DNA of 35,374 nt from a virus, in IMG/VR virus record IMGVR_UViG_3300029908_000092, positions 1 to 35,374 of that record; one strand, 5' to 3'. The translations under genes were made by a program, and so were the position numbers. Position 1 is the stretch's first letter, and each line of letters starts with the position of its first letter. Below the pieces are notes generated by a model, which searched no databases, had not been told where the DNA came from, and saw nothing but the letters and a program-made list of their open reading frames with translations. Positions 824 through 32,454 of the stretch are shown here, in pieces.

Positions 824-832
824 TCTATATCA
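824..832 (-). promoter_or_regulatory. Candidate extended -10 promoter (TGATATAGA)
   Basis: The minus strand reads TGATATAGA just after the HNH stop codon. It matches the recurring element TGTGATATAAT of this window except at the end. The predicted start is near 817, giving a leader of about 42 nt for the coiled-coil gene. No good -35 is seen. Confidence 0.4.
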
Positions 833-837
833 TATTC

Positions 838-1362
838 TTAAGACAATAGTTTGTTATGCTTTAGTCTATTTAGAGGTCCGGGGAGAATTTGCAAATTCCA
901 CGGCACATGAAGGCCAGATACATTTTCGCCCTGGAGAGGAACAATATGATCTACTTGAAGCTGTTCTTCACTTAACCATTGGAGTTCTTTAGCTAAAATA
1001 TATAACTCTTCAATTTCTGCTAATTGCTCTTTACTTAGCCATTGAGGGGTGCGTTGTTTTTTGGCAGCCTTACGTTTAGCATTCCACGCTCGACGTTTTC
1101 CGGTATTATCTTTTCTGTACTGTTTGTCGTATTCTGCTTTTTCAATTTTATGATCTGGCCCATACGTCTTCTGATATAGAAGTATTTCATCTCTATTGGT
1201 CAAATAATGCTGTCTATCGTATTCACTTTTTGATTCAGCGTTTTGTTTTGCCCTATTTGCTCGGCATCTTTTACAAAGTGTCTGCAATCCATCTATTTTT
1301 GACATATTTTTATGAAATTCGCCACTTTTCCTGATGGTCCGACACCCGTGGCAATATTTCAT
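838..1362 (-). CDS. HNH homing-type endonuclease
   Basis: The protein has 174 residues. The N-terminus has a zinc-binding pattern, C4-x2-C7 and a second C-x2-C near residues 31-34 (CKRC), typical of phage HNH proteins. The middle is very basic (KRRAWNAKRKAAKKQ). The C-terminal nuclease core is VDHIVPLQGENVSG, followed by LHVPWNLQILPGPLN, which fits the H-N-H metal finger. Such genes are usually selfish mobile elements that cut DNA at an unoccupied site. It sits between the phosphoesterase and the coiled-coil gene with a 1-bp gap upstream, consistent with insertion into an operon. A decayed relative of its last 25 or so codons lies at 28411-28506. Confidence 0.88.
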   Translation of the reverse strand: MKYCHGCRTIRKSGEFHKNMSKIDGLQTLCKRCRANRAKQNAESKSEYDRQHYLTNRDEILLYQKTYGPDHKIEKAEYDKQYRKDNTGKRRAWNAKRKAAKKQRTPQWLSKEQLAEIEELYILAKELQWLSEEQLQVDHIVPLQGENVSGLHVPWNLQILPGPLNRLKHNKLLS

Positions 1363-1363
1363 A

Positions 1364-2578
1364 TTAGTTCAACTGTATCAAAAATCTCTTGTAAAAAGAA
1401 GTTTCACGTTTAATGGAATCTGATTTTTCTCGTTTAATATAGAAATTAAGCGTTTGACAGGGTTCACAGTCAAAGCCCAAAACTGTACTGTAACCGTCAT
1501 TTCCGGGTACATTGCCATTGGTTACAATTTTACCAACATCGTATTCGGTAGGCGAATGATAATGACCGCCGCGCATGAATCTGATGGGCGTTTTAAGCTG
1601 ATTTACACGTTTGGCCATTAGACTTTCTAGTGCTACTCTGGTATTACCTTTAGCATTATCGTAGTGCTCATAAAGAACCTTCTCGCCATAGATATCGACC
1701 AATTGATAGGGTTCTTCGGGGATCTTCCAGCTGATGTTCTTAAGGCCCGCGACCTTACAAAACTCTTCCATGGTCTTATAAATGATCCACGTAACATTCT
1801 CAGCACCCGGTTGATTGTAAGTTCTATGCACTTCAGTTCGGTCGTGATTGCCTGTAACTCCGATACATTCAATTTCGGCACCTAATTTGGCTGCAGCATG
1901 AGCTACGGGAACAACGATCAATTGAAAACAATGGGTTAGACATTCCTGAACTTGGCGAGAATTGCCAAATTCGCATCCTTTGGAGGATTCCGTTCCATGC
2001 ATGGTAGCACTTTCGATCATATCGCCCAGAAAGGCTAGAATTATCTTATCAATTTTGTAGTGTTCGGCGGCTCGCTGCATTTCCTTGATCGTGGTGTCCG
2101 AGATCTGTTTTAAGCGCCTTTTAAGGACTTCATTGTTAAACGTTCGAGTTAGCTTACCAACATGAACATCGCTAATTAAAAGCTCAAGAGTCATACCCTT
2201 TTTGCCCTTTTTGAACTTAGGCAATTTTACCGCTTTTGGAGTTACTAGCTTGTTTAGCTCTTTCGCAGATCCCTTGATGGCATCTACAATATCTTCTCTC
2301 GACAGAGACTGATCTACAAGCTTTTTCAGATCCTTAGAATTTAAAGTGCTGGCCCTCTTGGTCCTGGCCACATCTTTGTAAAGTCGTACATATTCACTAG
2401 GATTGTCTAGGCGATCCCTATTGCGATGATACGATTTTTTGACAGAGTCTAAGGTCCTGTCTTTTTTGAACTTTTTATTGAATCGCTGAGTAATATCAGA
2501 CCAATCAAGACCTGCCTCTTCTTTCAGCGATGAAACATATGCTATTTCTGCATCGGACATTTTTTCCGGTAACATCAT
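1364..2578 (-). CDS. Calcineurin-like metallophosphoesterase
   Basis: The protein has 404 residues. Residues 1-125 form a helical, basic region that may bind DNA. The catalytic domain starts near 130 and has the family motifs in order: D137-x-H139 (LLISDVHVG), GD at 185-186, GNHD at 243-246 and a C-terminal GGHYHS. These residues bind two metals in phosphoesterases and nucleases. The motif set is complete, so it is probably active as a nuclease or phosphatase; the substrate is unknown. It is separate from the gp47-like gene at 10962-11936, which has the same fold. AAGGA lies about 12 nt before the first ATG; a second ATG follows directly, so the start is uncertain by one codon. Confidence 0.85.
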   Translation of the reverse strand: MMLPEKMSDAEIAYVSSLKEEAGLDWSDITQRFNKKFKKDRTLDSVKKSYHRNRDRLDNPSEYVRLYKDVARTKRASTLNSKDLKKLVDQSLSREDIVDAIKGSAKELNKLVTPKAVKLPKFKKGKKGMTLELLISDVHVGKLTRTFNNEVLKRRLKQISDTTIKEMQRAAEHYKIDKIILAFLGDMIESATMHGTESSKGCEFGNSRQVQECLTHCFQLIVVPVAHAAAKLGAEIECIGVTGNHDRTEVHRTYNQPGAENVTWIIYKTMEEFCKVAGLKNISWKIPEEPYQLVDIYGEKVLYEHYDNAKGNTRVALESLMAKRVNQLKTPIRFMRGGHYHSPTEYDVGKIVTNGNVPGNDGYSTVLGFDCEPCQTLNFYIKREKSDSIKRETSFYKRFLIQLN

Positions 2579-2639
2579 ATCTAAAAGATTCCTTCTCGTG
2601 GGTCCAAAAAGAGGTCGTAGTACATAGAACTACACTTAG

Positions 2640-2659
2640 TCTACTCTGTATACAGTAGA
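2640..2659. repeat. Perfect inverted repeat in the gap upstream of the phosphoesterase gene
   Basis: TCTACT (2640-2645) and AGTAGA (2654-2659) are complementary arms. Between them lies the overlapping palindrome CTGTATACAG (2646-2655). The element sits in a 93-bp gap between two leftward genes. It could be an operator or an mRNA hairpin. There is no T-run, so a terminator is unlikely. Confidence 0.4.
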
Positions 2660-2671
2660 ACCTCAAGATAT

Positions 2672-3286
2672 TTATGCGGTAGGTGAAGAATTATCTGCTG
2701 CAGGAGCTTCGGATGAAGCCTCCGCAGGGGCCGATTGTTCTGCTGGAGCTGAAGTTTCAGAAGCAGGAGCTTCGGTCTTAGGAGCTTCGATTGAGTAAAC
2801 TTCAAGGACTTCAAATTTTAGCTTGCCTTCTTGAATATCTACAATATCGCCAATTTTATGGTCTCGGATCTTATCTTGCACTTCAGGCTGTAACGCAGCA
2901 AGGGCAAACTGAAGACGCGGATTAACAGCATTACCTTGTTCGTCCAATTCACGACCAACAACGAAGGAGTTGTTAGTGACAGTATCTTGACTTACAAGAA
3001 CGCCTTGGGCGATAAGACCATCTACTTTTTGTTTCAAGTCTAGGACGTTATTCTCAACCATGGCTTTAGAAACGTTTTCGTCAGTTAGAGGTTCTCCACG
3101 TTGCGCAACAGCTTGAATTGATGAGACCTTATTACCGAGAATCTTGAGAGCTTCCTTGGCAACATTGAGGTCTTGCGCGACGCCGTTAAAAGCTTGATAC
3201 ATGGACATAAGTCCTTTTTCAAGATCTTCGATACGTTGTGAAGCGCTCTTGGGGGCTGGATTTTGTTGGGGTTGGTTATCTGACAT
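2672..3286 (-). CDS. Unknown protein with coiled-coil N-half and Ala/Glu/Pro-rich tail
   Basis: The protein has 204 residues. The start is secure: AAGGAG lies 5-6 nt before the ATG. Residues 15-60 are predicted helical and probably coiled-coil. Residues 100-165 look like a small compact domain (including IGDIVDIQEGKLKFEVLEVY). From about residue 170 the tail is low complexity, made of Ala, Pro, Ser and Glu. I do not recognise the family. It follows a 66-bp gap that carries a perfect extended -10 element, so it may head a transcript. The tail suggests a flexible linker or a protein made in quantity. Confidence 0.7.
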   Translation of the reverse strand: MSDNQPQQNPAPKSASQRIEDLEKGLMSMYQAFNGVAQDLNVAKEALKILGNKVSSIQAVAQRGEPLTDENVSKAMVENNVLDLKQKVDGLIAQGVLVSQDTVTNNSFVVGRELDEQGNAVNPRLQFALAALQPEVQDKIRDHKIGDIVDIQEGKLKFEVLEVYSIEAPKTEAPASETSAPAEQSAPAEASSEAPAADNSSPTA

Positions 3287-3321
3287 GTTATCTCCTTGTT
3301 AATTTCTTTTTGTTAAATACG

Positions 3322-3330
3322 ATTATATCA
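3322..3330 (-). promoter_or_regulatory. Extended -10 promoter (TGATATAAT)
   Basis: The minus strand reads TGATATAAT: TG, one base, then a consensus TATAAT at 3322-3327. The predicted start is about 3315, giving a leader of about 29 nt that holds the AAGGAG site of the gene ending at 2672. No clear -35 is visible. It is one of the best matches to the element repeated across this window. Confidence 0.6.
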
Positions 3331-3352
3331 TTGCTTAATTTTTACTTGACAT

Positions 3353-5520: not shown

Positions 5521-5522
5521 GG

Positions 5523-5858: not shown

Positions 5859-5859
5859 T

Positions 5860-8561: not shown

Positions 8562-8568
8562 TACTAGT

Positions 8569-8597
8569 AATATATCAAGTATTATCTAGAAAATCAA
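8569..8597 (-). promoter_or_regulatory. Promoter TTGATT-17-TATATT before the gp46-like gene
   Basis: On the minus strand -35 TTGATT (8592-8597), a 17-bp spacer and -10 TATATT (8569-8574) are present, and the -10 is preceded by TGA (extended -10). The predicted start is 8562, one base before the ATG at 8559-8561. No ribosome binding site exists in that space. Confidence 0.6.
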
Positions 8598-8602
8598 TAA
8601 AT

Positions 8603-8854: not shown

Positions 8855-8855
8855 A

Positions 8856-9845
8856 TTACCATTTCATCGGTAATGCGTGAGTATTTGCATTCAACAATGA
8901 CTCACGCACATCATCGGCAACGCTAATGACTTTTTCAAGAGTCAAAGACGTATCTAGAGCACAAACCTTCTTTTTGTCTGTGACTGCCATATCATAACAA
9001 GATTGTCCGAAAGATCCGCCTTCAGATAAAAATTGTGATAAGGAAAGTTTACGACCATCTTTGGTTGCGATATTGACTCGAACATTCATAGGAGCTGAAT
9101 TAAGAGGACAATTGTCAAGGTCATAGGAAATAGAAAGACCCATCAAATTGATGTTCTTCGTGGTGACACCATTTAGGCTGCTATCGCAACGCAAAGAGAC
9201 CACGCGATCGGCATAGCCTTCACTAACAGATTGGCTACCAGTGAGCCACATTTCTGAAGCGTATTCTTTTTGATAAGAAGCCAAAGTTTGCTTGCCATTG
9301 GTACGGTCTACCGTTTGTTGATCAAGTTCATTAAGACGAGAAAGCCAAAAATTATATCGACTATCCAGTTGGCTGGGCTTTTGGCCGCCAAATTGGCCTT
9401 CCATACCACCAGCTGCACGATGGCTCATCAAAACACCATTTTGAAGTATCAAACGTTCTCCGAGGCCTTGAACGATTTGAAATCCCATGCTAGCTGCGAA
9501 ATTAGTTACAGTATTGATGGGACGACCAAGACCTTGCAATCCTTGGATAAGTTCGAGACCCGCTTGGATGCTTCCGCCCGGAGTATTCATAAAAAGATAA
9601 ATCGGTTTACGTTTCAGGCCGACCTTAGAGGTCAAAGAACCTTGATCATCAAGTTCTTTAGCTTTAACAAGAACTTCGCCAATTGATTGGCCGGTAACTT
9701 CACCAGCCAGAACGATGGTATTATCGGATGACAACACAACAACTGTATTGTCCTTCTTTTGGGTTTTTGAAATCGAATTAGCCGAGATCAATCCGACAGT
9801 GCTCAACACTGCCAAGGTAAGTAAGTTTTTATTCGTTGTTTTCAT
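8856..9845 (-). CDS. Exported ClpP-like serine protease
   Basis: The protein has 329 residues. Residues 1-23 look like a Sec signal peptide: Lys near the start, then a hydrophobic run LLTLAVLSTVGLISA. The ClpP/crotonase-fold domain spans about 35-220. It has the oxyanion-loop NTPGGS (87-92), the nucleophile Ser119 in AASMG, His142 in MSHRAAGG and Asp213 in YADRVV, so the catalytic triad is complete. A C-terminal domain of about 110 residues with Cys residues is unlike normal ClpP and unrecognised. An exported ClpP-like protease suggests a job in the periplasm or envelope; that is inference. It overlaps the HTH gene by 17 bp and has AAGGAG 9 nt before the ATG. Confidence 0.82.
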   Translation of the reverse strand: MKTTNKNLLTLAVLSTVGLISANSISKTQKKDNTVVVLSSDNTIVLAGEVTGQSIGEVLVKAKELDDQGSLTSKVGLKRKPIYLFMNTPGGSIQAGLELIQGLQGLGRPINTVTNFAASMGFQIVQGLGERLILQNGVLMSHRAAGGMEGQFGGQKPSQLDSRYNFWLSRLNELDQQTVDRTNGKQTLASYQKEYASEMWLTGSQSVSEGYADRVVSLRCDSSLNGVTTKNINLMGLSISYDLDNCPLNSAPMNVRVNIATKDGRKLSLSQFLSEGGSFGQSCYDMAVTDKKKVCALDTSLTLEKVISVADDVRESLLNANTHALPMKW

Positions 9846-10557
9846 TAATATTATCTCCTTGTGTATCTGGTGTTATATCTACTATATCATGTTTCTTTGG
9901 TAATTTGCTATTCTCTTGTTCTCTACGTCTAGAATCGGCGAATTGTTTCAGCATACTACCAATGGTTTTATCCTTAGAATTGGGGGTAATTTCTAAGGAA
10001 TTTTCTCCGGTTTTTTTGATCGTCACTCCTTCGCCAGTATTTATCCCAACCATAGGTCCTTTTGGGGCCTTGGGATCGGCGTTCATAGAATGAAGCATCT
10101 CTACTACCTTGAAATACTTATCCATTTCCTTTAAATCAATAGATTTTACGATATCTTCATCTCCGGAGGCCAGATATTGGTTGATTTTATCTCCATGTCT
10201 TTTTTCAAACATGTGAATAATACGCAGCATATGATCCTGACTAGCGGCCTTTGATTCCAGTATGCGACCCTTCATGGAAGTTTCCAACTCCACCAAATAG
10301 TCATGACGCATTAAAGGCCAATTAAATTTATCGGAAAGATACAGAATTAAGGTCTTATTCGTTCTTACGATAGTTGCAATGTCCGTATAGGTTTTACCCG
10401 AAAGATATAAATCCATGATTTTGCGCATCTTCCCTTCATCAATCTTATCAAGTCCAGGCATACCAGCTTCGATAAATTCGTTAACTTTCACAAGTTCTTT
10501 TGGGGATAGATCTGTCTTGGATTGGTCGACAGTGGTAAGATTTTTATTATCGCTCAT
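9829..10557 (-). CDS. Helix-turn-helix protein, possible small terminase subunit
   Basis: The protein has 242 residues. Residues 43-85 form a helix-turn-helix (MRKIMDLYLSGKTYTDIATI and then a recognition helix), the kind found at the N-terminus of small terminase subunits, which recognise phage DNA for packaging. A helical middle (95-170) could be the oligomerisation region. The C-terminus is polar and probably disordered. A large terminase is present at 17065-18924 with no small subunit beside it, which makes this a candidate, but its location is distant and on the other strand. A transcription regulator is the main alternative. The Shine-Dalgarno site is weak. Confidence 0.5.
   Translation of the reverse strand: MSDNKNLTTVDQSKTDLSPKELVKVNEFIEAGMPGLDKIDEGKMRKIMDLYLSGKTYTDIATIVRTNKTLILYLSDKFNWPLMRHDYLVELETSMKGRILESKAASQDHMLRIIHMFEKRHGDKINQYLASGDEDIVKSIDLKEMDKYFKVVEMLHSMNADPKAPKGPMVGINTGEGVTIKKTGENSLEITPNSKDKTIGSMLKQFADSRRREQENSKLPKKHDIVDITPDTQGDNINENNE
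9881..9889 (-). promoter_or_regulatory. Candidate internal promoter (TGATATAGT) for the ClpP-like gene
   Basis: The minus strand reads TGATATAGT inside the 3' end of the HTH gene. It fits the window's extended -10 element. The predicted start is near 9874, giving a leader of about 29 nt that keeps the AAGGAG site of the ClpP-like gene. Confidence 0.35.
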
Positions 10558-12447: not shown

Positions 12448-12598
12448 CTTTGTCTACCTCTTTATTTGGACTTTTACTGTCTTGCAATATGATAACAAAA
12501 TATGCTATTCCGCACAAGAATAAAAACGCAAAACCTTTGCCGGCATCGACTAAAAAGTCATTCACCTTGCTAAAAATAGCCGGATCTATTGCATTCAC
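12425..12598 (-). CDS. Small single-span membrane protein, GTG start
   Basis: I found this 57-residue frame by direct translation. It starts with GTG at 12596-12598, overlapping the sigma-like gene's TGA in the GTGA form, and stops at 12425-12427 (TAA). One hydrophobic segment lies at about residues 23-39 (FAFLFLCGIAYFVIILQ). A polar, acidic tail rich in Asp and Lys follows. It overlaps the GroES-like gene by 23 bp. The stop-start coupling on one side and membrane-like composition make it credible. Function unknown; a small phage membrane protein or spanin-like piece are options. Confidence 0.6.
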   Translation of the reverse strand: MNAIDPAIFSKVNDFLVDAGKGFAFLFLCGIAYFVIILQDSKSPNKEVDKDDDSGAR

Positions 12599-13644
12599 AG
12601 CTTAATACCCTTTAATTTTAGTATTTTACGGTAGATTAATGGAAGATTCTTAGCCAAATTTAACATACGGCCTGTTGTTTCGTTTTGTATATAGGCCGCT
12701 TCGGTGTCTTGTCCAGGATCTTCTGTTCGATCGTAAAGATTCAAAAAGTTATCCCGATCCTCTGGATCTGGCTGTTGTGCTGTAGCGCTAATTGTGCTTG
12801 CGGCACTCATGAGATAACTTAACTGAGAAGCTATTACTCTTTCCTTCGGTATACTTTTGCCATCTTTTTGGTCCTGCTCAAAACTATTATTTACTGCGTG
12901 CGCAAGCTCATTCACTTCATCGATACCTTTTCGGCCTCTGATGGAATGTGCTTTATAAAGAATACGTTTATCGGATGGATAAAAATGCAACATCGTTTCA
13001 CTATATGCATCAATTAAATTCCCCACCATACGGCCGATGCAGACTCCACGAAACACTGGTGAATATGGACCGCACCACTTGTCAACTCCAGCAGCAAGAC
13101 CTTGAGCGCAGATTCCTATCATGTCCATTAGAGATAAATGGCTCTTTGGAGTTTTCCTATAAAATAGTTTGGCTCTATTTATGGCCAAAGGCATGTTGTT
13201 TTCAATCAGAATAGTTCTGGCGGTATGAACTCGTTGAAATAATTGATCTGCTCTTTTGGGAAATGGACCAAGCCAATTTTCCTTAATAAATTTAATAAGT
13301 TGATAATTAATATTGAAACTTTTTAAAACATCAATATTATTCTCTTTTATGGATGGTGTAATTTTTTTACTAAAAGTAATCGCTGTTTCCCTAAAATAGG
13401 GTCTAGCCGACAAAATATTTTTATTTTGAATACAAATACGTTGTAAAAATTTCTTATAGATTTCAGTAGCTTGTCTATATTTTAAAATAACTTCCTTGAA
13501 TTTTCGCTCAGCATCTAGAAGCTCTTCCACCTGTTCGGCTTGGGTGGTACCATCCTTATTGTTCGCCAAAGACCTAGTTACATCGATGGCAAGCTTGTAA
13601 AAGCTGTCATCAAAATGTTCATGATATTTCTTTGGTTTGGCCAT
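12595..13644 (-). CDS. Phage sigma-70-family factor (region 2)
   Basis: The protein has 349 residues. Residues 143-235 follow the sigma region 2 pattern: ILIENNMPLAINRAKLFYR (2.1, which binds the core enzyme in other sigmas), then SLMDMIGICAQGLAAGVDKW (2.2) and an arginine-rich helix (VFRGVCIGRMVGNLIDAY) where -10 recognition normally lies. The first 135 residues are helical and unlike known sigma domains. The C-terminus is short (LPLIYRKILKLKGI) and may be a remnant of region 4. It could direct polymerase to the extended -10 elements of this window; that is inference. The ATG has no Shine-Dalgarno site, and the predicted transcript starts at the A of the ATG. Confidence 0.75.
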   Translation of the reverse strand: MAKPKKYHEHFDDSFYKLAIDVTRSLANNKDGTTQAEQVEELLDAERKFKEVILKYRQATEIYKKFLQRICIQNKNILSARPYFRETAITFSKKITPSIKENNIDVLKSFNINYQLIKFIKENWLGPFPKRADQLFQRVHTARTILIENNMPLAINRAKLFYRKTPKSHLSLMDMIGICAQGLAAGVDKWCGPYSPVFRGVCIGRMVGNLIDAYSETMLHFYPSDKRILYKAHSIRGRKGIDEVNELAHAVNNSFEQDQKDGKSIPKERVIASQLSYLMSAASTISATAQQPDPEDRDNFLNLYDRTEDPGQDTEAAYIQNETTGRMLNLAKNLPLIYRKILKLKGIKL

Positions 13645-13678
13645 GTCTGTTTTATATCACAGACTTATATTATTTCAA
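13645..13678 (-). promoter_or_regulatory. Promoter of the sigma-like gene with an inverted repeat around its -10
   Basis: On the minus strand -35 TTGAAA (13673-13678), a 16-bp spacer and -10 TATAAA (13651-13656) with an upstream TGTGA are present. The -10 sits in the 8-bp loop of a perfect 6-bp inverted repeat, GTCTGT...ACAGAC (13645-13650 and 13659-13664). The start is predicted at 13644, the first base of the ATG. The repeat could be an operator or part of the transcript's 5' end. It overlaps the end of the helicase gene. Confidence 0.6.
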
Positions 13679-15192: not shown

Positions 15193-15221
15193 AGTATATC
15201 GCAATAATTAATTATAGTCAA
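15193..15221 (-). promoter_or_regulatory. Leftward promoter TTGACT-17-TATACT
   Basis: The minus strand has -35 TTGACT (15216-15221), a 17-bp spacer and -10 TATACT (15193-15198). It is close to the sigma-70 consensus. The predicted start is 15186, two bases before the helicase ATG, with no room for a ribosome binding site. It is back to back with the groEL promoter region. Confidence 0.65.
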
Positions 15222-15225: not shown

Positions 15226-15254
15226 GTGATATAAGTTAATTATATAGGTATGAT
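15226..15254 (+). promoter_or_regulatory. Rightward promoter region for groEL
   Basis: Two overlapping candidates are present. One is the extended -10 GTGATATAAG with TATAAG at 15230-15235, which predicts a start near 15242 and a 46-nt leader. The other is GTGATA (15226-15231), a 17-bp spacer and TATGAT (15249-15254), which predicts a start near 15261. Both keep the strong AGGAGA site at 15278-15283. They cannot be told apart from sequence. Confidence 0.5.
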
Positions 15255-18924: not shown

Positions 18925-18930
18925 TACAAT
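18922..18930 (+). promoter_or_regulatory. Candidate extended -10 promoter (TGATACAAT)
   Basis: TGATACAAT overlaps the terminase stop codon. The predicted start is 18937, three bases before the ATG of the GIY-YIG gene, which has no Shine-Dalgarno site. No clear -35 is seen. Confidence 0.4.
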
Positions 18931-18939
18931 CTTATTAAT

Positions 18940-19755
18940 ATGATTGGTTATATATATAAAATCACAAATACGATAAATGGCAAGATTTACATAGGACAGA
19001 CTGTTCGTTCTGTGACTCAAAGGTTCAAAGAACATTTTCATCCATCTAGTGGATCTAGATATTTAGCTAGATCGATAAAGAAATATGGAAAAGAATCCTT
19101 CATATTAACAATTTTAGAAACTGTCCAGTATGATGATAAACATCAGCTGATTGACAAATTAAATGAATTAGAAATAAAATATATAAATGAAAACAATAGT
19201 TTATGTCCAAATGGTTACAATGGACTTGCCGGTGGAACCAACACAATCGGAAGAGCTTGGTCTGGAAAGATGTCGCCACAAAGTGTTTTAATTAGAGCAC
19301 AAAAACATAAAAAATCTATAATTTGTAATGAAACTAAACAGATATGGCCTTCCATAAAAGAATGTGCAGAGAGTTTTAATACAAAACCAGAATGCATACA
19401 CCGCGTATTGAGAGGTATCAGGAAGCATTTTAGAAATCTTTCCTTTTCCTATTTTAATAGCAATTCTATAAAATTCTCAAAGGAAGCAAAAACAAAAATT
19501 TCTAAAGCTACTAAAAACCGATCGAAAATGGTATACAAGAAATTAACAGAAGAGCAGATAAATAGGATGAAAACTCCAATTATTTGTAATGAGACAGGGA
19601 TAAAATATGATTCTTTAACTCAAGCGGCAAAACAGTTAAATTTATCTATATCAAAAATTAGTTTAGTTCTAAAGGGTAAGCGTAAACATCACAAAGGATT
19701 CACATTCTCTTTATTTTGCAAGCAATCTTTAGTAGGATACCATAAAGAGGTCTAA
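18940..19755 (+). CDS. GIY-YIG homing endonuclease with repeated NUMOD-type DNA-binding modules
   Basis: The protein has 271 residues. The catalytic domain starts with YIYKITNTINGKIYIGQT, the GIY-YIG motif pair, followed by a conserved Arg region (RFKEHF) and NELEIKYI with the catalytic Glu (near 78). Two copies of a module beginning with IICNET (about residues 127-170 and 210-255) resemble NUMOD1-like helix-turn-helix elements that contact DNA. Such genes are selfish and home into unoccupied alleles. It sits between terminase and the next structural gene, separated by 15 and 2 bp. It is AT-rich and does not share the codon pattern of its neighbours. Confidence 0.9.
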   Translation: MIGYIYKITNTINGKIYIGQTVRSVTQRFKEHFHPSSGSRYLARSIKKYGKESFILTILETVQYDDKHQLIDKLNELEIKYINENNSLCPNGYNGLAGGTNTIGRAWSGKMSPQSVLIRAQKHKKSIICNETKQIWPSIKECAESFNTKPECIHRVLRGIRKHFRNLSFSYFNSNSIKFSKEAKTKISKATKNRSKMVYKKLTEEQINRMKTPIICNETGIKYDSLTQAAKQLNLSISKISLVLKGKRKHHKGFTFSLFCKQSLVGYHKEV

Positions 19756-21469: not shown

Positions 21470-21478
21470 TGATATAAG
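21470..21478 (+). promoter_or_regulatory. Candidate extended -10 element (TGATATAAG) before the portal gene
   Basis: The sequence GTGATATAAG matches the groEL upstream element. The predicted start is 21485, six bases before the portal ATG, which would remove the AGGGG at 21480-21484. The two signals conflict, so either the start is elsewhere or the match is chance. Confidence 0.3.
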
Positions 21479-21490: not shown

Positions 21491-23362
21491 ATGAGCGATG
21501 ATCAAAATAAAGCCAACAAACCGGATCAAGACGTGATTCCCACTACCAAAAAAACGGTTGCCATTGAATTTAGTCAACCAGAAGCTCAATCGGATGAAAC
21601 CTCTCTCAGAAAAGCTTTAGAAAACTCACCAGCATCACGGCCAGAAAATGCACCGGCCACACCTTCTCCCATTTTAAAAGCATTAAATATAGCTTCCGGT
21701 TCTGCTAATAAAAGAGCCCCTCAGTTAGCATTCACAGAGCAACCTCTTCCTTCCGATAACTATCTTGGACTATTTAAATCCAAACGAAGACTTTTGCCCG
21801 ATGAATTGATCAAGCAAATTCGTGTCACAGACCATCTTGTTGCGGCCATCCTTCGCGCTCGCAGTAACATGCTCAGTCTTTTTGGTCATCTACAAAAAGA
21901 TAGATTCGACAATGGTATTGCAATTGATATTAAGCCAGAATTTTACAAGATTCTTACACCTTCACAATTTGTCAAGGTTATGGAACGTATTAAACGTTTT
22001 GAAGAATTACTATTAAATTGTGGACACACTGAAGGATTAGAAAATCAAGATAAAATGACGCTGGCTGAATATTTAGCCATTCAAGCCAACAATGGTTTGG
22101 CTTTTGGTCGTTTTGCAACGGAAATGATCTTTGATCGCTCAGGTAAACCAGATGCCGACGGAAATTATCCCTTCCATCGTTTTAGACCACGTGACGTTGG
22201 AACTATTAGATTTGCTATTCGTAAGGCCGATACCATTGGAAATACTCTTCGGCAAACCGCCATTAAATTATTGGAAAATCTTACGGGTGATAAGATTAAC
22301 ATCGATCTTAATAAGCTAAAAGAAGATCAGTATGCATGGGTTCAGGTTATTGATGAAACACCCAGACAGGCTTTTACACACGAAGAATTGTTAGTCTACA
22401 CATTATTCCCTTCTACCGACGTAGAGCATAATGGCTATCCCGTTACACCTCTTGATACCATTATTAATGCTGTAACTACTCACATCTCCATCGATGCATA
22501 CGAAAAACTATACTTCCAAAACGGTCGCGCCTCAAAAGGTATTTTGGTTATCAACTCGGACGAGATTGACGAACCAACGATGAATAACATCAAACTTCAA
22601 TTCAACGCGTCAATTAATAGCGTTTCCAATAGTTTTCGAACCCCCGTATTTGGTATGGCCAAAGAAGACAAAGTTCAGTGGCTCTCTACCCAAGGAGAAG
22701 GCTTACACGATGCGGATTTCCAATATCAATACGATCAAACTGCCCGTAATATCATGTCTGCGTTTAGTATTTCTCCTGATGAATTACCCTCCTATGGGCA
22801 CCTCTCTAAAGGTACAAACAGTCAGACTCTTTCTGAATCAAACAACGAGTTCAAGTTAACCGCTTCTCGTGATACTGGTCTTAGACCTTTAATTCTTCAA
22901 TTTCAAACATTCTTTAATCAGCGACTATTTCCAGCCATGGACCCTTTGTTATCTAAGATCTGTGAGATTAAATTCTCAGGATTAGATGCCCAGAGTAAGG
23001 AACAAGAATCTACTCGCTTGCAACAAGATTCAGCATTGCATATGACCATGGACGAAATGCTCCAAGAAGTGGGCAAGGACCCAATTGGTACAGCTTTCGG
23101 TGGCAGCTTACAGTTCAATGAACGATATCAATTAATTTTAGATAAATATGTGAATGTCAATGAAGTAGTGGGCCACTTCTTTAAGAGCCCTGGAGCTGCG
23201 TTAGATCCGATGTTGAAATATAAACGAGATCCTTTTTATCTCCAAAACTTACAGCTTCTGGCACAAGTCAATCCTATAGCAGTTAAAGCCTATTTCGCTC
23301 CAAAACCGTTTGCATTGGATTTCCTTAAAATGGAATTGCAAGATCTTTTAGATGAGGAATAA
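21491..23362 (+). CDS. Portal protein
   Basis: The protein has 623 residues. The first 80 residues are disordered. The core follows the portal pattern: LLPDELIKQIRVTDHLVAAI near 105, a beta-rich wing with FHRFRPRDVGTIRF, a stem helix region (AYEKLYFQNGRASKGILV), and then FSISPDELPSYGHLSKGTNS, the segment that in portal families precedes the clip and wing contacts. The C-terminus is helical, with many acidic residues at the end. Portals form the twelve-subunit ring at one vertex through which DNA enters. AGGGG precedes the ATG by 6 nt. Location after terminase and before the Mu F-like gene supports it. Confidence 0.85.
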   Translation: MSDDQNKANKPDQDVIPTTKKTVAIEFSQPEAQSDETSLRKALENSPASRPENAPATPSPILKALNIASGSANKRAPQLAFTEQPLPSDNYLGLFKSKRRLLPDELIKQIRVTDHLVAAILRARSNMLSLFGHLQKDRFDNGIAIDIKPEFYKILTPSQFVKVMERIKRFEELLLNCGHTEGLENQDKMTLAEYLAIQANNGLAFGRFATEMIFDRSGKPDADGNYPFHRFRPRDVGTIRFAIRKADTIGNTLRQTAIKLLENLTGDKINIDLNKLKEDQYAWVQVIDETPRQAFTHEELLVYTLFPSTDVEHNGYPVTPLDTIINAVTTHISIDAYEKLYFQNGRASKGILVINSDEIDEPTMNNIKLQFNASINSVSNSFRTPVFGMAKEDKVQWLSTQGEGLHDADFQYQYDQTARNIMSAFSISPDELPSYGHLSKGTNSQTLSESNNEFKLTASRDTGLRPLILQFQTFFNQRLFPAMDPLLSKICEIKFSGLDAQSKEQESTRLQQDSALHMTMDEMLQEVGKDPIGTAFGGSLQFNERYQLILDKYVNVNEVVGHFFKSPGAALDPMLKYKRDPFYLQNLQLLAQVNPIAVKAYFAPKPFALDFLKMELQDLLDEE

Positions 23363-27075: not shown

Positions 27076-27076
27076 A

Positions 27077-27895
27077 TTATCCTTTCAAATAAATCTGATT
27101 CAATCGTTCATCTAGAAATTGTTTAGCCGTCACGCCGTCTGCTAGGACAATCTCTGATCGTGGGTGTACAAACAATGGCATTGAAATTCGATCCGATGTG
27201 CTGTTTTCAGGATTCACAACCCTATGAGTGGTTGATTTATACAAACCTTTGGAGGCCAATTGAAGCATATCACCAATATTCACGACTATACTATTTTCTT
27301 CATGCGGAACAGAATGCCATTTACCGTTCCTGTCCAATACCTGTAGGCCAGAGGAGCTGGCTGCTACGAGTAATGTAATGAAGTTAATATCTTCATGAGC
27401 AGCAGATCGTGTAGCGCCCGTATTATCTGTAAAATTAAAGGCCGGATAGTAAAGACTACGAATGATTGTGTTATCACTCATGTCGCAATCCTGTCTATAC
27501 GATGTATCTCCAGAATGATTGTCAATTGCAGTCAATAATCGACCAGAAAGATCTTCTAACATAAAAAACATCTTTTGGGTAATCCCAAAAACTTCGGCCG
27601 GTATCTCTTGACCAGGACACCACTGAAAAAACTCCTTAAGATCTGGTTTTTTGGCTCCAACCGCCTTTTCAGAGCCAAATGATTTGTAGCCCATATTGGG
27701 ATCTGTCTGGTTAGTGAAAAATTTCTTTTCTTCCGTTTTTAAAAGGAAGAATTGGCGCCAAGCATCCTGAGCCTCTTTGATGAGGCTACCGTCGATACCG
27801 TGGTGAGTGATCACGGCAAAGCCAGTATTTACAACGGAATCAATAAAATCACTCTCGAATCCATTTTCTCTAATATTACAGACCTTTACTTGCAT
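27077..27895 (-). CDS. 2-oxoglutarate/Fe(II)-dependent oxygenase, isopenicillin N synthase-like
   Basis: The protein has 272 residues. The double-stranded beta-helix has the iron site H167-x-D169 (AAHEDINF) and H224 (STTHRVVNP), and the 2-oxoglutarate-binding R236-x-S238 (SDRISMP), all present. The N-terminal half has the DIOX-type start (GFAVITHHGID and then a helix ending in KFF). Related enzymes oxidise small molecules; in phages, oxygenases of other types modify DNA bases. The substrate here is unknown. An excellent AGGAGG lies 6 nt before the ATG, and a divergent promoter region precedes it. It heads a leftward operon with the ligase. Confidence 0.85.
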   Translation of the reverse strand: MQVKVCNIRENGFESDFIDSVVNTGFAVITHHGIDGSLIKEAQDAWRQFFLLKTEEKKFFTNQTDPNMGYKSFGSEKAVGAKKPDLKEFFQWCPGQEIPAEVFGITQKMFFMLEDLSGRLLTAIDNHSGDTSYRQDCDMSDNTIIRSLYYPAFNFTDNTGATRSAAHEDINFITLLVAASSSGLQVLDRNGKWHSVPHEENSIVVNIGDMLQLASKGLYKSTTHRVVNPENSTSDRISMPLFVHPRSEIVLADGVTAKQFLDERLNQIYLKG

Positions 27896-27917
27896 GATGC
27901 CTCCTGTATGATATATT
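27890..27917 (+). promoter_or_regulatory. Rightward promoter TTGCAT-16-TATATT for the M15 peptidase
   Basis: -35 TTGCAT (27890-27895) and extended -10 TGATATATT (TATATT at 27912-27917) lie 16 bp apart. The predicted start is near 27924, giving a 28-nt leader that keeps AAGAGG. The -10 overlaps that of the opposite promoter. Confidence 0.55.
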
Positions 27918-27941
27918 ATCAGTGTAATCTTTTAAAAGCAA
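27913..27941 (-). promoter_or_regulatory. Leftward promoter TTGCTT-17-TAATAT for the oxygenase-ligase operon
   Basis: On the minus strand -35 TTGCTT (27936-27941), 17 bp and -10 TAATAT (27913-27918) are present. The predicted start is near 27906, which retains the AGGAGG site. It shares its -10 bases with the opposite promoter, so the two could exclude each other. Confidence 0.45.
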
Positions 27942-27951
27942 GAGGTAAAGT

Positions 27952-28407
27952 ATGGACATAAACAGCATTGACTGGACAGACGGAACACAAAAAATATCAA
28001 ACCATTTCACTGTCAAAGAAGCGCTTTGGCTCCCTACCTGGGGACGATTAGCCAATGAATCTGATGGGTTGACAGATGATATTAAAACAAGTTTATTAAA
28101 TACTTTTGCTTGGATGGACAAAATCAGAGATTTTTTCAACGCACCAATAAACGTTCACGTAGCCGAGAGGCCGCCTGCCTATAATCAACTTATAGGCGGT
28201 GCAACAAGTTCAATGCATATGTTTGGACGTGCGGTAGATTTCGATGTATCTGGGTTGGAATGTAAAGATGCAATTGCTCAAATTCTTAATAATAATTTAC
28301 TAACCAGTATGGGTCTGCGAATGGAGAACAATGGTCCAGCTCCTAGCTGGATTCATTTGGATGACAAAGAGCTAACTCCTGGACATAATGCTTATTTTAT
28401 TCCTTAG
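27952..28407 (+). CDS. Peptidase M15-type endolysin (peptidoglycan peptidase)
   Basis: The protein has 151 residues. The zinc site of M15A peptidases is present: H89 and D96 in SSMHMFGRAVDFDV (spaced by six) and H135 in SWIHLDD. The domain begins with an FTVKEAL element near residue 19, as in the family. Such enzymes cut peptide bonds in peptidoglycan. It has no signal peptide, so it would need a holin to reach the wall. It stands alone on the plus strand, with its own promoter and AAGAGG. The next genes converge on it, with no obvious terminator between. Confidence 0.85.
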   Translation: MDINSIDWTDGTQKISNHFTVKEALWLPTWGRLANESDGLTDDIKTSLLNTFAWMDKIRDFFNAPINVHVAERPPAYNQLIGGATSSMHMFGRAVDFDVSGLECKDAIAQILNNNLLTSMGLRMENNGPAPSWIHLDDKELTPGHNAYFIP

Positions 28408-28410
28408 CAA

Positions 28411-28706: not shown

Positions 28707-28716
28707 ATCAACAAGA

Positions 28717-28953
28717 TTACCATCGTCTAGAGTCCCACTCTTCCTGAGTAAGTGGTTCAATTGTAAACATTTTGCCTTTGACAGATTTTTCTACTAGCTC
28801 TAAAACCTCAAAAATCCTTACAAAAATTCGCTTACCTGCAAAACTATTATGAATTACTCTAAGATCGCAAGACTCGGTACCCATAACAATCCTGGTTTTG
28901 CAACCGGGGTACATATCTTTTAAAAGTTTTACGATTTTTTCTTTTTGATTCAT
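28717..28953 (-). CDS. Small unknown protein
   Basis: The protein has 78 residues with TAGGAA before the ATG. It begins with a basic helix (NQKEKIVKLLKDMYPG) and then has beta-like segments (CKTRIVMGTESCDLRVI and KRIFVRIFEVLEL). The ATG overlaps the upstream stop as TAATG. The family is not recognised. Confidence 0.55.
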   Translation of the reverse strand: MNQKEKIVKLLKDMYPGCKTRIVMGTESCDLRVIHNSFAGKRIFVRIFEVLELVEKSVKGKMFTIEPLTQEEWDSRRW

Positions 28954-29201
28954 TAAAGTGTTCCTATTTGTTTAAACCTAGGATGAACGAATTCAGTGGT
29001 CAAATTATTTATAAGCATCAAATGCTCTGGGTGAAGATATACGGTGCCAGTTAAGTGTGCCATTTCTCCACCATATTCGATGTTCCAGCCGTACTTATGC
29101 CATGGTAAATTCTCTTCTGCTACAATTTGAGTAGCTATGATAAATTCGTCAAGGGATTCTGAATAATACACGTAGGGTACATTTAAGGCCAGTTTTTTCA
29201 T
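28953..29201 (-). CDS. Small unknown protein, leaderless candidate
   Basis: The protein has 82 residues. It is rich in aromatic and acidic residues (VPYVYYSESLDEFIIATQIV and HKYGWNIEYGGEMAH). No family is recognised. The ATG at 29199-29201 has no Shine-Dalgarno site. A near-perfect sigma-70 promoter (TTGACA-17-TATATT) ends six bases upstream, which places the predicted start at the A of the ATG. It follows directly after the terminator-like hairpin of the RNA region. Confidence 0.6.
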   Translation of the reverse strand: MKKLALNVPYVYYSESLDEFIIATQIVAEENLPWHKYGWNIEYGGEMAHLTGTVYLHPEHLMLINNLTTEFVHPRFKQIGTL

Positions 29202-29207
29202 TTTTTA

Positions 29208-29236
29208 AATATACTCTAGCTGTCTTACTTTGTCAA
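29208..29236 (-). promoter_or_regulatory. Strong promoter TTGACA-17-TATATT
   Basis: On the minus strand -35 TTGACA (29231-29236, perfect consensus), 17 bp and -10 TATATT (29208-29213) are present. The predicted start is 29201, the first base of the ATG of the gene ending at 28953. The -35 touches the T-rich tail of the upstream hairpin, so termination of the RNA and this promoter are packed together. Confidence 0.7.
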
Positions 29237-29254
29237 GATAAACCCCTTACGGGG
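29235..29254 (-). terminator. Terminator-like hairpin at the end of the RNA region
   Basis: On the minus strand CCCC (29251-29254), a GTAA loop (29247-29250), GGGG (29243-29246) and then TTTATCTT (29235-29242) are present. The stem is short but all G-C, with a stable GNRA-type loop. The T-run is broken by one A and one C, so termination may be partial. Confidence 0.5.
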
Positions 29255-29690
29255 GTCAATCGGCATGCCATAAGCCACGCATGCTATGGCCTTCGACCAA
29301 TTCTCCGCCGGTCTAGTCTCAGATTTCATCTTAATCATGGGCGCATGATTACGAACCTGGCGGACTGAAACAAAAGAATGTGCAGATCAGTCGCTAGCTG
29401 ACTAATAGGTGTATCTTTTCGTTGGCTTCTCAACATCCATCTCTGGAATAGATCCGCCGCCTCTACAGAGCATTCTTAGGTGAACTTCAAACGACTTAAC
29501 CTATGTCGTACTCTCTTGCGTGTCTCCAGTGGCTCCTGCTCCCAGCTTTCGCCAGGTCGACTCCACAGCTTTCCACGCCGCTGCACAAAGTAACTGAAAG
29601 AACGGTTAACCCGCATCCGCTCTAGGTGGTGTAGACCTAACTTAAGCTGGTCGTGGCGGCGGCTCCCTAAACTACACAGCAACCTGTTAC
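29236..29690 (-). ncRNA. Probable large structured non-coding RNA (about 455 nt)
   Basis: This is the only stretch over 300 bases without a credible gene. It is GC-rich against its surroundings (38 of 60 bases are G or C at 29521-29580). On the minus strand it has an 8-bp long-range helix, CCGCCGCC (29655-29662) with GGCGGCGG (29454-29461). Local stems include TAATCATG/CATGATTA (29332-29351, loop of 4), TCCGCC/GGCGGA (29359-29364 with 29304-29309), GCCATA/TATGGC (29285-29290 with 29267-29272), TAGGT/ACCTA (29623-29639) and GCGTG/CACGC (29574-29578 with 29518-29522). GNRA-type loops GAAA (29547-29550), GAGA (29440-29443) and GTAA (29247-29250) are present. An extended -10 promoter and a terminator-like hairpin flank it. 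I do not recognise tmRNA, RNase P RNA or intron signatures. Large ornate phage RNAs such as GOLLD or ROOL are candidate relatives by size. Confidence 0.65.
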
Positions 29691-29696
29691 AGTTCT

Positions 29697-29705
29697 ATTA
29701 TAGCA
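29697..29705 (-). promoter_or_regulatory. Extended -10 promoter of the RNA (TGCTATAAT)
   Basis: The minus strand reads TGCTATAAT, a perfect extended -10 with consensus TATAAT at 29697-29702. The predicted start is about 29690. No matching -35 is seen. It lies just after the stop of the gene at 29714-30019 and has no open reading frame with a ribosome site downstream. Confidence 0.6.
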
Positions 29706-29713
29706 TAGAAAAA

Positions 29714-30019
29714 CTAGTTTTTGGTGTTTTTTTGAATGTATTCAGTTAAAGTAGTATTTGGAATAGTAGTGCCGCCAGAGGAACATGTGACGGTATACTG
29801 ATATGCTTGTTGGCCACATTTTTTACAAGAAGGTGGGGTAATTCCAAGCCACGGATTTGGGTATTCGTGCTGACAAGTGTCCAATTGAGTGGTATGAGGA
29901 CTAGTCCAAACTGTTGGTACAGACACAGTATTTGGTTTCAGTAGAGCTATTTGCGATTCTAGCAATGTGACTTTAATTTGAAGTTCTTCGATAAGTTTTA
30001 AAAGTTCTTTTTTCTTCAT
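29714..30019 (-). CDS. Small protein with coiled coil and zinc-binding-like cluster
   Basis: The protein has 101 residues. Residues 1-28 form a Leu-rich coiled coil (LLKLIEELQIKVTLLESQIA). The middle has C-x-H (CQH) and C-x2-C (CKKCG) about 16 residues apart, which could bind zinc. The C-terminus is Thr-rich. Function unknown. No Shine-Dalgarno site precedes the ATG; an extended -10 element predicts a start one base upstream. Confidence 0.55.
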   Translation of the reverse strand: MKKKELLKLIEELQIKVTLLESQIALLKPNTVSVPTVWTSPHTTQLDTCQHEYPNPWLGITPPSCKKCGQQAYQYTVTCSSGGTTIPNTTLTEYIQKNTKN

Positions 30020-30026
30020 AAAACTA

Positions 30027-30035
30027 TTTATATCA
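30027..30035 (-). promoter_or_regulatory. Candidate extended -10 promoter (TGATATAAA)
   Basis: The minus strand reads GTGATATAAA across the 3' end of the protease gene. The predicted start is 30020, one base before the ATG of the 29714-30019 gene. The same GTGATATAAA string occurs at the sigma-like gene's promoter. Confidence 0.5.
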
Positions 30036-31661
30036 CTATTTTTTATGTTCCATTAAATGAGTCCCCATAAGATGTGGTTTTACTGATACTTTATCGCCAG
30101 TTTTATATTTGCCAGCAGGATGGCCACCAAGTTCATGACCAGATTTTAAATGTACAGTTTCATACTTTTTATCGTTTCCAAAAGGAGCTGTATGAGATAC
30201 TTCACTTTCAAAAGGAGCATTTACTGCAGGAGGTTTTTTATAAGGAGTCTTTTTTGGAGGATTTTTAGCTCTTTCGGCATTATCGGCAGCTATTTTAGCC
30301 TGATCTTCTGGTGTTCCAAAGGTGAGTGCTTTACCCAAATCTGAGGAATCTTTGGGCATCAATCCGTGAGCGCGTATTTTTGCATGTTCAGGGCTTTGAA
30401 ATCCTTTATAATGAGTGGTTTCGCCTTTTGGATCAGTATGTTCTAAGCTAGATGTTGTAAAGCCACCAATTTTAAATTTATGACCTGATGGATGGTTGAA
30501 AACGTGATTTCCATGTCTATCTCTAGACCATTCGGTTTTCTGAACATAGCTTAAAGGTTCACCTTGTTCAAATTCAGAAAATGGATTTTGTTTTTGAGCC
30601 TTATTTAAGGCAATTACATTGCCAATAGCATCGATCTCGCCCATGGCAAGTTTTGGAAGTCTTTTTTGCATAAATGAACGAAATTCTTCTTTTTTATCCC
30701 ATTTGTTATACAAATTTTCGGCCCTCGCAAGCCATTGATTTTTTTTCTTTTTCTTACCGAGATCTTCTGGAGCTAAAGCTGCTCCTTGAACCAGATTACC
30801 CGGAGCTGCACCTAAACCAGAACCTGCTGTCATTGCTTTTTTCAGCCGCTCTTTTTTATAGATGATCTTGCCAAAACCTTTGGGGGATGAATCTTTTTGT
30901 TTGATGCCGCCCCATCCCTTGTCGGGACGAGCTACGTTGCTAACCGGCTTATCTACATTTTGTTTAGGAAGTGACGCGCCTTGAACTAACATGGGAGGCG
31001 GTGCGGAAATACCAGATCCCGAAGAAAGAGCCTTACTTATAGGATCGACCCCTAGAATTTTGGCATGAGCAAAGGGATCTTCTTTCTTTAACATTTCTAG
31101 TAGTGTCTTATTTGTATCTTTAACAATGCGAATTTCCGTAAAAGTTTCTGTTTTAAATATTTCATCTAGACTGTCTTTTTTGTCAGCTTGTGGGGGGACC
31201 ATTTCAGCGATTGCTGCCTTATTTGCTGGCAATACAGTAATAGTAACTTTTCTTGCAATAGAACGTGTTATATCCATGTTTTCTTTAGATATTTTCGCTC
31301 CCTCGATCGAAAACCCAATAGTATCCGTTGGAGTTTTACCCCTATGATCTTCATCATAGCGGAACATACCGGCAACTTCTTTTGCAGAATCTTTATACGA
31401 ATCAAAAAGCTCACCCATCACATAAAGGAATGGAGTAGTACATTTATTCCAATAGTAAAGTTCTCTATCATCTTCACAGTCTTTATCGGAAAATATCTTT
31501 TTTGCTTTTAATATTTTTCCAACTATATGATCAGGAGTTGTGTTTAAGTGTTCGTAATTAAAAACACTTCCAACCAAAGAAGATATGTCAAGCCCTTCGA
31601 TAATAATTCGTTCTCCGGCAGTATCAATATTTTGACTTGCAGCAATACCATCTATATACAT
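30036..31661 (-). CDS. Prohead maturation protease with long C-terminal extension
   Basis: The protein has 541 residues. Residues 1-165 form the serine protease domain of phage heads: IEGLDISSLVGSVFNYEHLN with the catalytic His in NYEH (about 37), IVGKILKAKKIF, GFSIEGAKIS with the catalytic Ser (about 118), and VTITVLPANKAAI at the end. These enzymes cut the scaffold and capsid N-termini during maturation. The remaining 375 residues are basic and low in complexity. They include two copies of a motif also found at the capsid N-terminus (210-231 and 275-296). An HxxGG-type region is at the C-terminus. No Shine-Dalgarno site is clear, and a GIY-YIG gene lies 4 bp upstream. Confidence 0.8.
   Translation of the reverse strand: MYIDGIAASQNIDTAGERIIIEGLDISSLVGSVFNYEHLNTTPDHIVGKILKAKKIFSDKDCEDDRELYYWNKCTTPFLYVMGELFDSYKDSAKEVAGMFRYDEDHRGKTPTDTIGFSIEGAKISKENMDITRSIARKVTITVLPANKAAIAEMVPPQADKKDSLDEIFKTETFTEIRIVKDTNKTLLEMLKKEDPFAHAKILGVDPISKALSSGSGISAPPPMLVQGASLPKQNVDKPVSNVARPDKGWGGIKQKDSSPKGFGKIIYKKERLKKAMTAGSGLGAAPGNLVQGAALAPEDLGKKKKKNQWLARAENLYNKWDKKEEFRSFMQKRLPKLAMGEIDAIGNVIALNKAQKQNPFSEFEQGEPLSYVQKTEWSRDRHGNHVFNHPSGHKFKIGGFTTSSLEHTDPKGETTHYKGFQSPEHAKIRAHGLMPKDSSDLGKALTFGTPEDQAKIAADNAERAKNPPKKTPYKKPPAVNAPFESEVSHTAPFGNDKKYETVHLKSGHELGGHPAGKYKTGDKVSVKPHLMGTHLMEHKK
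30774..31034 (-). repeat. Two copies of a capsid-like motif in the protease tail
   Basis: Codons 210-231 (30969-31034) encode KALSSGSGISAPPPMLVQGA plus SL. Codons 275-296 (30774-30839) encode KAMTAGSGLGAAPGNLVQGA plus AL. The capsid protein has KALEAGSYNAAPGQLVQGAA plus L at residues 10-30. LVQGA is invariant in all three. Confidence 0.8.
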
Positions 31662-31665
31662 GATA

Positions 31666-32379
31666 TTAAGATTGCTTTTCTTGAATATTGTATTTAAACC
31701 ATTGTTTTTTATATTTTCTGTTCTTTTTTAAGGATTGTAAAAGAGATCTATAATTGCCATTAACCGATGCGGCGGCATCCTTCAAAGACCTAAAAACTTG
31801 ATTAGTGGTTGTATTTATTATAGATTTTGCACGATTGCCTTCTTTTCCAAACCAATAAGCCTTTTCTCCTTTTTGTCTTAAAGAGATTTGAATTCTTTCC
31901 TCTTCTGTCCAATGTTTTTTGCCAAAGTTGTTGGGCCTAAGGCCTTGGTCTATTTCTTCTTGAAGTTTTCTTCTGGCAATTAATAATTTCTCTCTAACCT
32001 CTGGTCTAGCCATCGCTTCTGTTAGAGATTCGTTTCTATTTTTAACCCATTCTGGGTCGTTGTATAAAAGTCTATTTCTTTCATTTCTTTTTATGACCAA
32101 ATCCTTATCAAATTTATAGCCCGCAGTTCCCTGGCCACCTCCAGTTAGATTAGCTTTAGGATGAAGTAATTGAATTTGTTCAATTTCTAGATCTAAGGCA
32201 TCCTTTTCCAATAAATTGATGGCCACAAAATCTACTCTAAATCCTTCTTCTTTTGCTATAGATTCCCAAATCTTATTTCTACTACTCCTAGCAAAAGCTC
32301 TTCTCTTTTTTCCTTTTCCAACATAGAATACTTCCCCAGTTTTTAGAGAAATATGTATGTAGACATAAAAAATATTCAT
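31666..32379 (-). CDS. GIY-YIG endonuclease
   Basis: The protein has 237 residues. The N-terminus has YVYIHISLKTGEVFYVGKGK, a GIY-YIG pair in its YVY/FYVGKG form, followed by an Arg region (KKRRAFARSSRNK) and ALDLEIEQIQLLHP with the catalytic Glu. NLTGGGQGTAG ends the domain. The C-terminal part (about 190-235) has IINTTTNQVFRSLKDAAASV, a NUMOD-like DNA-binding module. It is a selfish endonuclease placed between a leftward promoter and the prohead protease gene. The ATG is ordinary and has no strong ribosome site. Confidence 0.87.
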   Translation of the reverse strand: MNIFYVYIHISLKTGEVFYVGKGKKRRAFARSSRNKIWESIAKEEGFRVDFVAINLLEKDALDLEIEQIQLLHPKANLTGGGQGTAGYKFDKDLVIKRNERNRLLYNDPEWVKNRNESLTEAMARPEVREKLLIARRKLQEEIDQGLRPNNFGKKHWTEEERIQISLRQKGEKAYWFGKEGNRAKSIINTTTNQVFRSLKDAAASVNGNYRSLLQSLKKNRKYKKQWFKYNIQEKQS

Positions 32380-32425
32380 ATGTTAAAGATTAATACCCCA
32401 TGGTTAATTAGTAATAGTAACTTTA

Positions 32426-32454
32426 ATTATATCACATAATTTATATAGTGTAAA
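32426..32454 (-). promoter_or_regulatory. Leftward promoter TTTACA-17-TATAAT
   Basis: On the minus strand -35 TTTACA (32449-32454), 17 bp and -10 TATAAT (32426-32431) preceded by TGTGA are present. It is the best match to the repeated element, TGTGATATAAT. The predicted start is near 32419, about 40 nt before the GIY-YIG ATG. It would drive that gene and the prohead protease. Confidence 0.65.

Follow-up and report, generated by a model that had tools for sequence, protein, structure and literature searches.

Two classes of short motifs lie upstream of genes in a 35.4 kb viral contig (hereafter the window, meaning the whole stretch of DNA analysed) and in the genomes of related phages. Judging from sequence and placement, the first, class A (TRTGATATA), is genuine: a set of promoters of a generally known type, common to this phage and its relatives. 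The second, class B (YAATCTTWW), is the putative late class and the more interesting result, as it appears to point to the target of a sigma factor encoded by the phage. We hold with moderate confidence that class A sites act as middle-type promoters for host RNA polymerase and class B sites as late promoters for the phage sigma. Sequence statistics cover motifs, positions, gene classes and conservation; from these we infer promoter activity, time order and the pairing of sigma with motif.

The products of the window include a UvsW-like helicase, GroEL, terminase large subunit, portal, major capsid protein, DNA ligase and an SbcD-like protein, and the window is similar to the genome start of Myxococcus phage Mx1, whose tail is long and contractile. 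Gene starts in the window come from a simple custom gene caller, not from curated annotation. From IMG/VR, 67 loci of relatives were collected that surround the sigma gene; ten long records, together with Mx1, were examined at full length. Genomes were grouped by sigma identity as group I (at least 63%), group II (43-55%) and group III (below 43%), the last being mostly GC-rich and including Mx1. GroEL (15288-17057, +) and a ClpP-like protease (8856-9845, -) are phage-encoded, and a 2OG-Fe(II) oxygenase gene (27077-27895, -) is kept in several relatives. The 512 nt from 29202 to 29713 hold no called gene; at their left end is TTGACA-17-TATATT, at leaderless distance before 28953-29201. A single MAG of a bog Deltaproteobacteria member (PLEQ, bog_1112) contained four Mx1-like phage fragments (L182-L185), and others were binned in Saprospiraceae and Elusimicrobia MAGs; the MAG organisms could be the hosts, or the fragments could be mis-binned.

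Class A sites in the window and its relatives

The original prediction described a phage-wide extended -10 element, TGATATA or a one-base variant, and proposed a count against shuffled controls and motif discovery on upstream regions. All of its listed sites are present, with cores 2-3 nt from where it had placed them (Table 1). The window holds 13 copies of TGATATA compared with 7.2 expected from shuffles, a modest total excess; the weight of the evidence lies in its placement, which is strongly non-random, and not in the total count. Ten of the 13 copies are in sense orientation and at most 60 nt upstream of a start, a placement available at 3.6% of positions (binomial P 1.1e-12), which bears out the claim that nearly all lie just upstream of a gene in the correct orientation. 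The remaining copies (1172+, 12383+ and 19647-) are inside genes. The statement that GTGATATAA occurs five times, each before a gene, also holds, with 5/5 copies in sense orientation within 60 nt of a start (P 6e-8). Within the upstream regions of the window, TGATATA was observed 9 times compared with 0.27 expected under an order-2 model trained on upstream sequence, it ranked first among 140 letter permutations, and de novo motif discovery recovered TGTGATATA as the top motif, above simulated control sets. The listed site at 18922 does exist on the plus strand, as the variant TGATACA, but an overlapping CAATCTT explains it better.

Upstream enrichment of TGATATA recurs in eight relatives, with observed/expected counts of 16/0.5 (G003), 9/0.7 (G004), 9/0.5 (G009), 11/0.5 (G010), 13/0.9 (G011), 20/1.4 (G012), 7/0.4 (G013) and 16/0.6 (G014). 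The Shine-Dalgarno sequence and the start codon, which otherwise attracted the pooled fits, were masked, and the results were then rechecked unmasked. The fit to 149 sites gave the consensus TRTGATATA, with base frequencies in TGATATA of T 0.91, G 0.96, A 0.98, T 0.96, A 0.99, T 0.85 and A 0.91. The columns just 3' are nearly uninformative, and the 3' AT of TGTGATATAAT, which had been taken as part of the element, is not conserved at the relatives' sites. The exact TGTGATATAA was rejected as a phage-wide signal, with just 0-2 copies per relative record; the unit is the shorter TRTGATATA. Across the same 149 sites no column upstream of the consensus (-17) is informative, including any MotA box near -30.

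Distances to the start codon fix the register of the element. Counted from its first base on unmasked sequence, TGATATA lies 14-17 nt from the start codon in 28/99 cases, at 20-21 nt in two and at 8 nt in one; all others are at least 24 nt away, leaving 18-23 nt nearly empty; partial loci outside the full genomes have the same two-peaked pattern. Sites at 14-17 nt mostly lack a Shine-Dalgarno sequence and those at 24 nt or more nearly all serve genes that have one. Position-anchored 4-mers, scored with no prior choice of motif, place TGAT at 15 and TATA at 12. The two peaks are as expected from a fixed transcription start, with the mRNA either beginning at the ATG or having a leader with room for ribosome binding. 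A fixed start in turn places TATA at -12 to -9 and TG at -15/-14, so that in the register taken from leaderless sites the TG precedes a TATAAT-like hexamer, as in an extended -10.

T at -7 is central to sigma-70 promoters. Class A has no conserved T at this position (T in 39/149 sites) and no preference at -8/-7. TTGACA matches 16-18 nt upstream of the 149 sites were no better than at control distances, in keeping with the original prediction that most sites lack a good -35. In each of the four sites that do have a good -35, the base at -7 is T, suggesting that a small subset, including the window site at 32428, doubles as full sigma-70-like promoters.

Class A was confined to groups I and II; other lineages have different elements next to a TAT core. 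TRTGA is replaced there by TGTGG or, in G019, ATTCGC; the full replacements include TGTGGTAT in a set of low-GC divergent loci and ATTCGCTATNNG in G019 (12/31 at leaderless distance). Start-anchored elements that differ from class A, among them TGTGGTAT and GATTCGCTATNNG, were seen in L079-L082, L088, L093, L103, G019 (L172-L180) and Mx1 (L004, L043-L045). At the sigma gene of L095 and L100, GCACTTGACA stands six nt before TAGAAT, and in Mx1 TAGATCAAC lies ~24 nt before starts.

Table 1. Candidate promoter sites and the sigma gene in the window (A and B, promoter classes)
Feature	Position	Strand	Context
A core	826..832	-	Upstream of 383-775; 1/3 orthologs
Weak B candidate GAATCTT	2585..2591	-	Leaderless distance before 1364-2578; first base off consensus
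A core	3324..3330	-	Upstream of 2672-3286; A in 3/8 orthologs
A core	8571..8577	-	Near-leaderless, SbcC-like gene (ATG 8561); 0/8 orthologs
A core	9883..9889	-	Within preceding gene, upstream of ClpP-like gene; A in 4/6 orthologs
Phage sigma, divergent sigma-70 region 2	12595..13644	-	Proposed class B reader; profile and AlphaFold matches
A core TGTGATATA	13653..13659	-	Spacing would put the start at the sigma gene ATG (leaderless); A in 8/8 orthologs
A-like variant GCGATATA	15195..15201	-	Just before UvsW-like helicase ATG (15184); exact A in 4/8 orthologs; TTGACT 17 nt upstream of TATACT (direct reading)
A core	15227..15233	+	Upstream of GroEL; A in 6/8 orthologs
B core CAATCTT	18927..18933	+	Leaderless, GIY-YIG endonuclease gene (18940); overlaps TGATACA site
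B core CAATCTT	19723..19729	+	In GIY-YIG gene 3' end, upstream of post-TerL structural gene 19758-21461; B in 8/8 orthologs
A core	21470..21476	+	Upstream of portal gene 21491-23362; 2/8 orthologs
A core	27909..27915	+	16 nt upstream of B core; before M15 peptidase gene
B core TAATCTT	27925..27931	+	Upstream of M15 peptidase gene 27952-28407; B in 4/5 orthologs
A core	30029..30035	-	Near-leaderless before 29714-30019; not conserved
B core CAATCTT	31668..31674	-	Leaderless before prohead-protease-like gene 30036-31661; B in 7/8 orthologs; overlaps stop codon of upstream endonuclease gene
B core TAATCTT	32386..32392	-	Leaderless before endonuclease gene
A core	32428..32434	-	Tandem, B core 42 nt downstream

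Class B sites and the division of genes

K-mer scans also gave (C)AATCTTA, a motif overlooked by the original prediction, with a fitted consensus of YAATCTTWW. Class B is a short core upstream of virion genes with no -35, and the window holds five such sites plus a weak one at 2585. Its distance to the start codon peaks at exactly 13 nt (19/145), which places AATCTT at -12 to -7; distances of 15-22 nt are nearly empty, and nearly all of the remaining sites have a Shine-Dalgarno sequence. As for class A, position-anchored 4-mers recovered the core with no prior choice of motif. Class B occurs in all sigma groups, and CAATCTT reached observed/expected counts of 22/0.6 in a 65% GC genome, 12/0.9 in G015 and 9/0.9 in Mx1.

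Two endonuclease genes of the window, the GIY-YIG gene (18940-19755, +) and an endonuclease-like gene with a weak NUMOD3 match (31666-32379, -), have a B core on both sides. In each, one core is leaderless before the gene's own ATG and one lies in its 3' end, where it would serve the virion gene that follows. It looks as if these endonuclease genes had moved into late promoters and re-created them.

The genes served by the two classes were counted in two ways, as score-thresholded sites in eight genomes and by matching one fixed pattern at the orthologs of genes in the window. Score-thresholded class B sites preceded baseplate assembly genes in 8 genomes, the post-TerL structural gene in 7, baseplate J in 6 and the prohead protease in 4. 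Class A sites above threshold preceded sigma in 6 genomes, GroEL in 6, UvsW in 5, baseplate J in 6 and the protease in 5, those at baseplate J and the protease often being in tandem with class B. By the ortholog test, the sigma gene (A 8/8, B 0/8) and GroEL (A 6/8, B 0/8) carried class A only, the post-TerL structural gene carried class B only (A 0/8, B 8/8), and the prohead protease carried both (A 4/8, B 7/8). Class A was present in 24/56 orthologs of window genes that have it versus 13/175 of the others (odds ratio 9.3, P 7e-9, a value that is optimistic because the genomes are related). Calling class A "middle" is a simplification, as several virion operons have it upstream too.

The phage sigma and the putative readers of the two classes

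The original prediction held that the phage encodes a sigma region 2 protein, and profile and structure matches to sigma factors agree. With the sigma family profile the PDB matches were sigma factors, the best being RpoD (6wmr, E 1.7e-4) over region 2. For the AlphaFold model (pLDDT 83), the first Foldseek matches were sigmaA/sigma70 chains (E 5.7e-4, probability 1.00); VIA-align Z scores reached 12.9, which for a helical protein is supportive, not decisive. Single-sequence Pfam and PHROGs searches of the window sigma gave no match, and the Mx1 homolog matched PF04542 at E 4.3e-5, short of the Pfam cut-off. Residues 195-232, which by an alignment made by eye appear to be regions 2.3-3.0, share 63% identity when groups I and III are compared, versus 34% overall.

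No match to the RNA polymerase beta subunit (PF00562) was found in 11 genomes in a search that detected its controls, which makes host core polymerase the likely enzyme. Searches of the full genomes for a second sigma, by region 2 and region 4, returned nothing convincing, with a region-2 model that also missed the sigma of groups I and II. An AsiA search gave one sub-threshold match (E 0.07, one genome) against control genomes holding no true AsiA, an inspection by eye of proteins present in groups I and II but not III yielded no obvious DNA-binding candidate, and no MotA/AsiA-like candidate was identified.

In the proposed transcription programme, class A promoters, with TG at -15/-14, TATA at -12 to -9, no -35 and transcription starting about 6 nt after -7, would serve the pre-late genes for sigma, the UvsW-like helicase, GroEL and the ClpP-like protease, and would act as an added second start upstream of some virion operons. 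Their reader would probably be host RNA polymerase carrying the primary sigma of the host, possibly aided by a factor from the phage. Once expressed from its class A promoter, the phage sigma would then redirect the same polymerase to class B, driving virion and lysis-type genes from AATCTT at -12 to -7. Of the sites counted, ~13% in class B and ~28% in class A, a sizeable minority each, would start at the ATG and give leaderless mRNAs. Since the sigma gene carries class A only and must be transcribed before its product, host polymerase would act first, on class A, and sigma second, on class B. The phage sigma is assigned to class B because this class stays constant where the sigma recognition region does, while class A is replaced. 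The original prediction is thus supported in its idea of a genome-wide promoter class, mostly without a -35, in a phage with its own sigma region 2 protein, but its suggestion that class A is the T4-late-like target of that sigma finds no support, as sigma, GroEL and UvsW carry class A and the post-TerL structural gene lacks it.

It is quite improbable that the phage sigma instead reads class A, with positive feedback on its own gene, leaving class B to something else. Such a layout would resemble phage-sigma promoters in phage 7-11 (PMC4331800), given class A at the sigma gene in all eight orthologs, and would suit the replacement of class A in group III, where the sigma is ~35% identical. 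However, the DNA-recognition region is the most conserved part of the sigma across groups, and class A changes completely where class B does not. Virion genes, moreover, carry class B, a low-power search found no other sigma-like protein to read it, and a sigma-dependent promoter alone could not start sigma synthesis. We conclude that the phage sigma is probably not the class A reader. That the motif is an RNA element, a translation or processing signal, is suggested by its closeness to start codons, but a transcribed element has no reason to keep leaderless or Shine-Dalgarno-length distances and no Rfam family was found in the window, making this explanation highly unlikely.

A further alternative is that class A is the ordinary extended -10 of the host, read by unmodified primary sigma with nothing phage-specific about it. 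Both TRTG at -17 to -14 and TATA at -12 agree with the extended -10 as it is known (PMC2613000), and at 32428 a TTTACA placed 17 nt upstream of TATAAT makes a full sigma70-like match. Set against this are the missing preference at -8/-7, the absence of a -35, the A that follows TG in 98% of sites at a position left free in the host consensus, and the use of TGTGG or ATTCGC by lineages of the same family; we regard this alternative as unlikely. The lack of a T at -7 and an element upstream of the -10 that changes between lineages argue against host sigma-70 acting alone on class A. We tentatively raise the possibility that class A is read with a phage-encoded factor, whose -10-adjacent element (TRTGA, TGTGG, ATTCGC and others) turns over between lineages.

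Relation to known phage promoter systems

The extended -10 of sigma-70/SigA, TRTGnTATAAT, has T at -17, R at -16 and TG at -15/-14, and does not need a -35 (PMC2613000). Class A shares these positions as well as TATA at -12 to -9, and differs in that -8/-7 are not conserved, n is fixed as A and the element is specific to phage lineages. Like the middle promoters of T4 (MotA/AsiA), class A is an extended -10 without a -35 in front of pre-late genes, but it has no conserved box near -30. No AsiA match exceeded the cut-off, in a search whose control genomes held no true AsiA. Late promoters of T4 (TATAAATA, gp55) occupy -13 to -6 (PMC1524935). Class B, at -12 to -7, is likewise a short core only, upstream of virion genes and with a phage sigma as its putative reader, yet its core is AATCTT, not TATAAATA, many of its sites are leaderless, and neither Pfam nor PHROGs recognises the window copy of the sigma.

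In phiEco32 and 7-11, phage sigma promoters (TAATGTATA, TGTGATGTTATA) form middle and late classes (PMC4331800). The present motifs resemble these in being short, phage-specific cores found by conservation and in forming middle and late classes, but here the two cores are unrelated while there the motifs are related, and the class B core is not TAATGTATA. Phage 7-11 also has phage-specific TG...TATA-like promoters upstream of its sigma gene, where autoregulation is inferred (PMC4331800), so that a sigma can act on its own gene through a motif of this type. Genes of AR9 may carry two promoter classes (PMC5312081), and the overall architecture proposed here is like that of T4, with host-type, middle and gp55-type late promoters (PMC1524935, PMC2613000), and of AR9 (PMC5312081). 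The open literature searched contained neither motif nor the assignment of readers, promoters go unmentioned in the Mx1 genome paper, and open papers yielded no description of routine leaderless placement of both classes in such phages. As far as could be searched, class A has not been described before.

These results provide a transcription programme that can be put to the test in a large phage family on which almost no work has been done (~170 kb, Mx1 relatives), with a predicted DNA target for a new phage sigma lineage and a second promoter class. They also suggest that leaderless mRNAs are a routine, promoter-defined output of a large phage. If class A is read with a phage-encoded factor, it would be a new kind of middle-transcription control, in which the late sigma and AATCTT stay fixed and both classes often start transcription exactly at the ATG. 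Mx1 is in culture, which makes the late-class prediction directly checkable.
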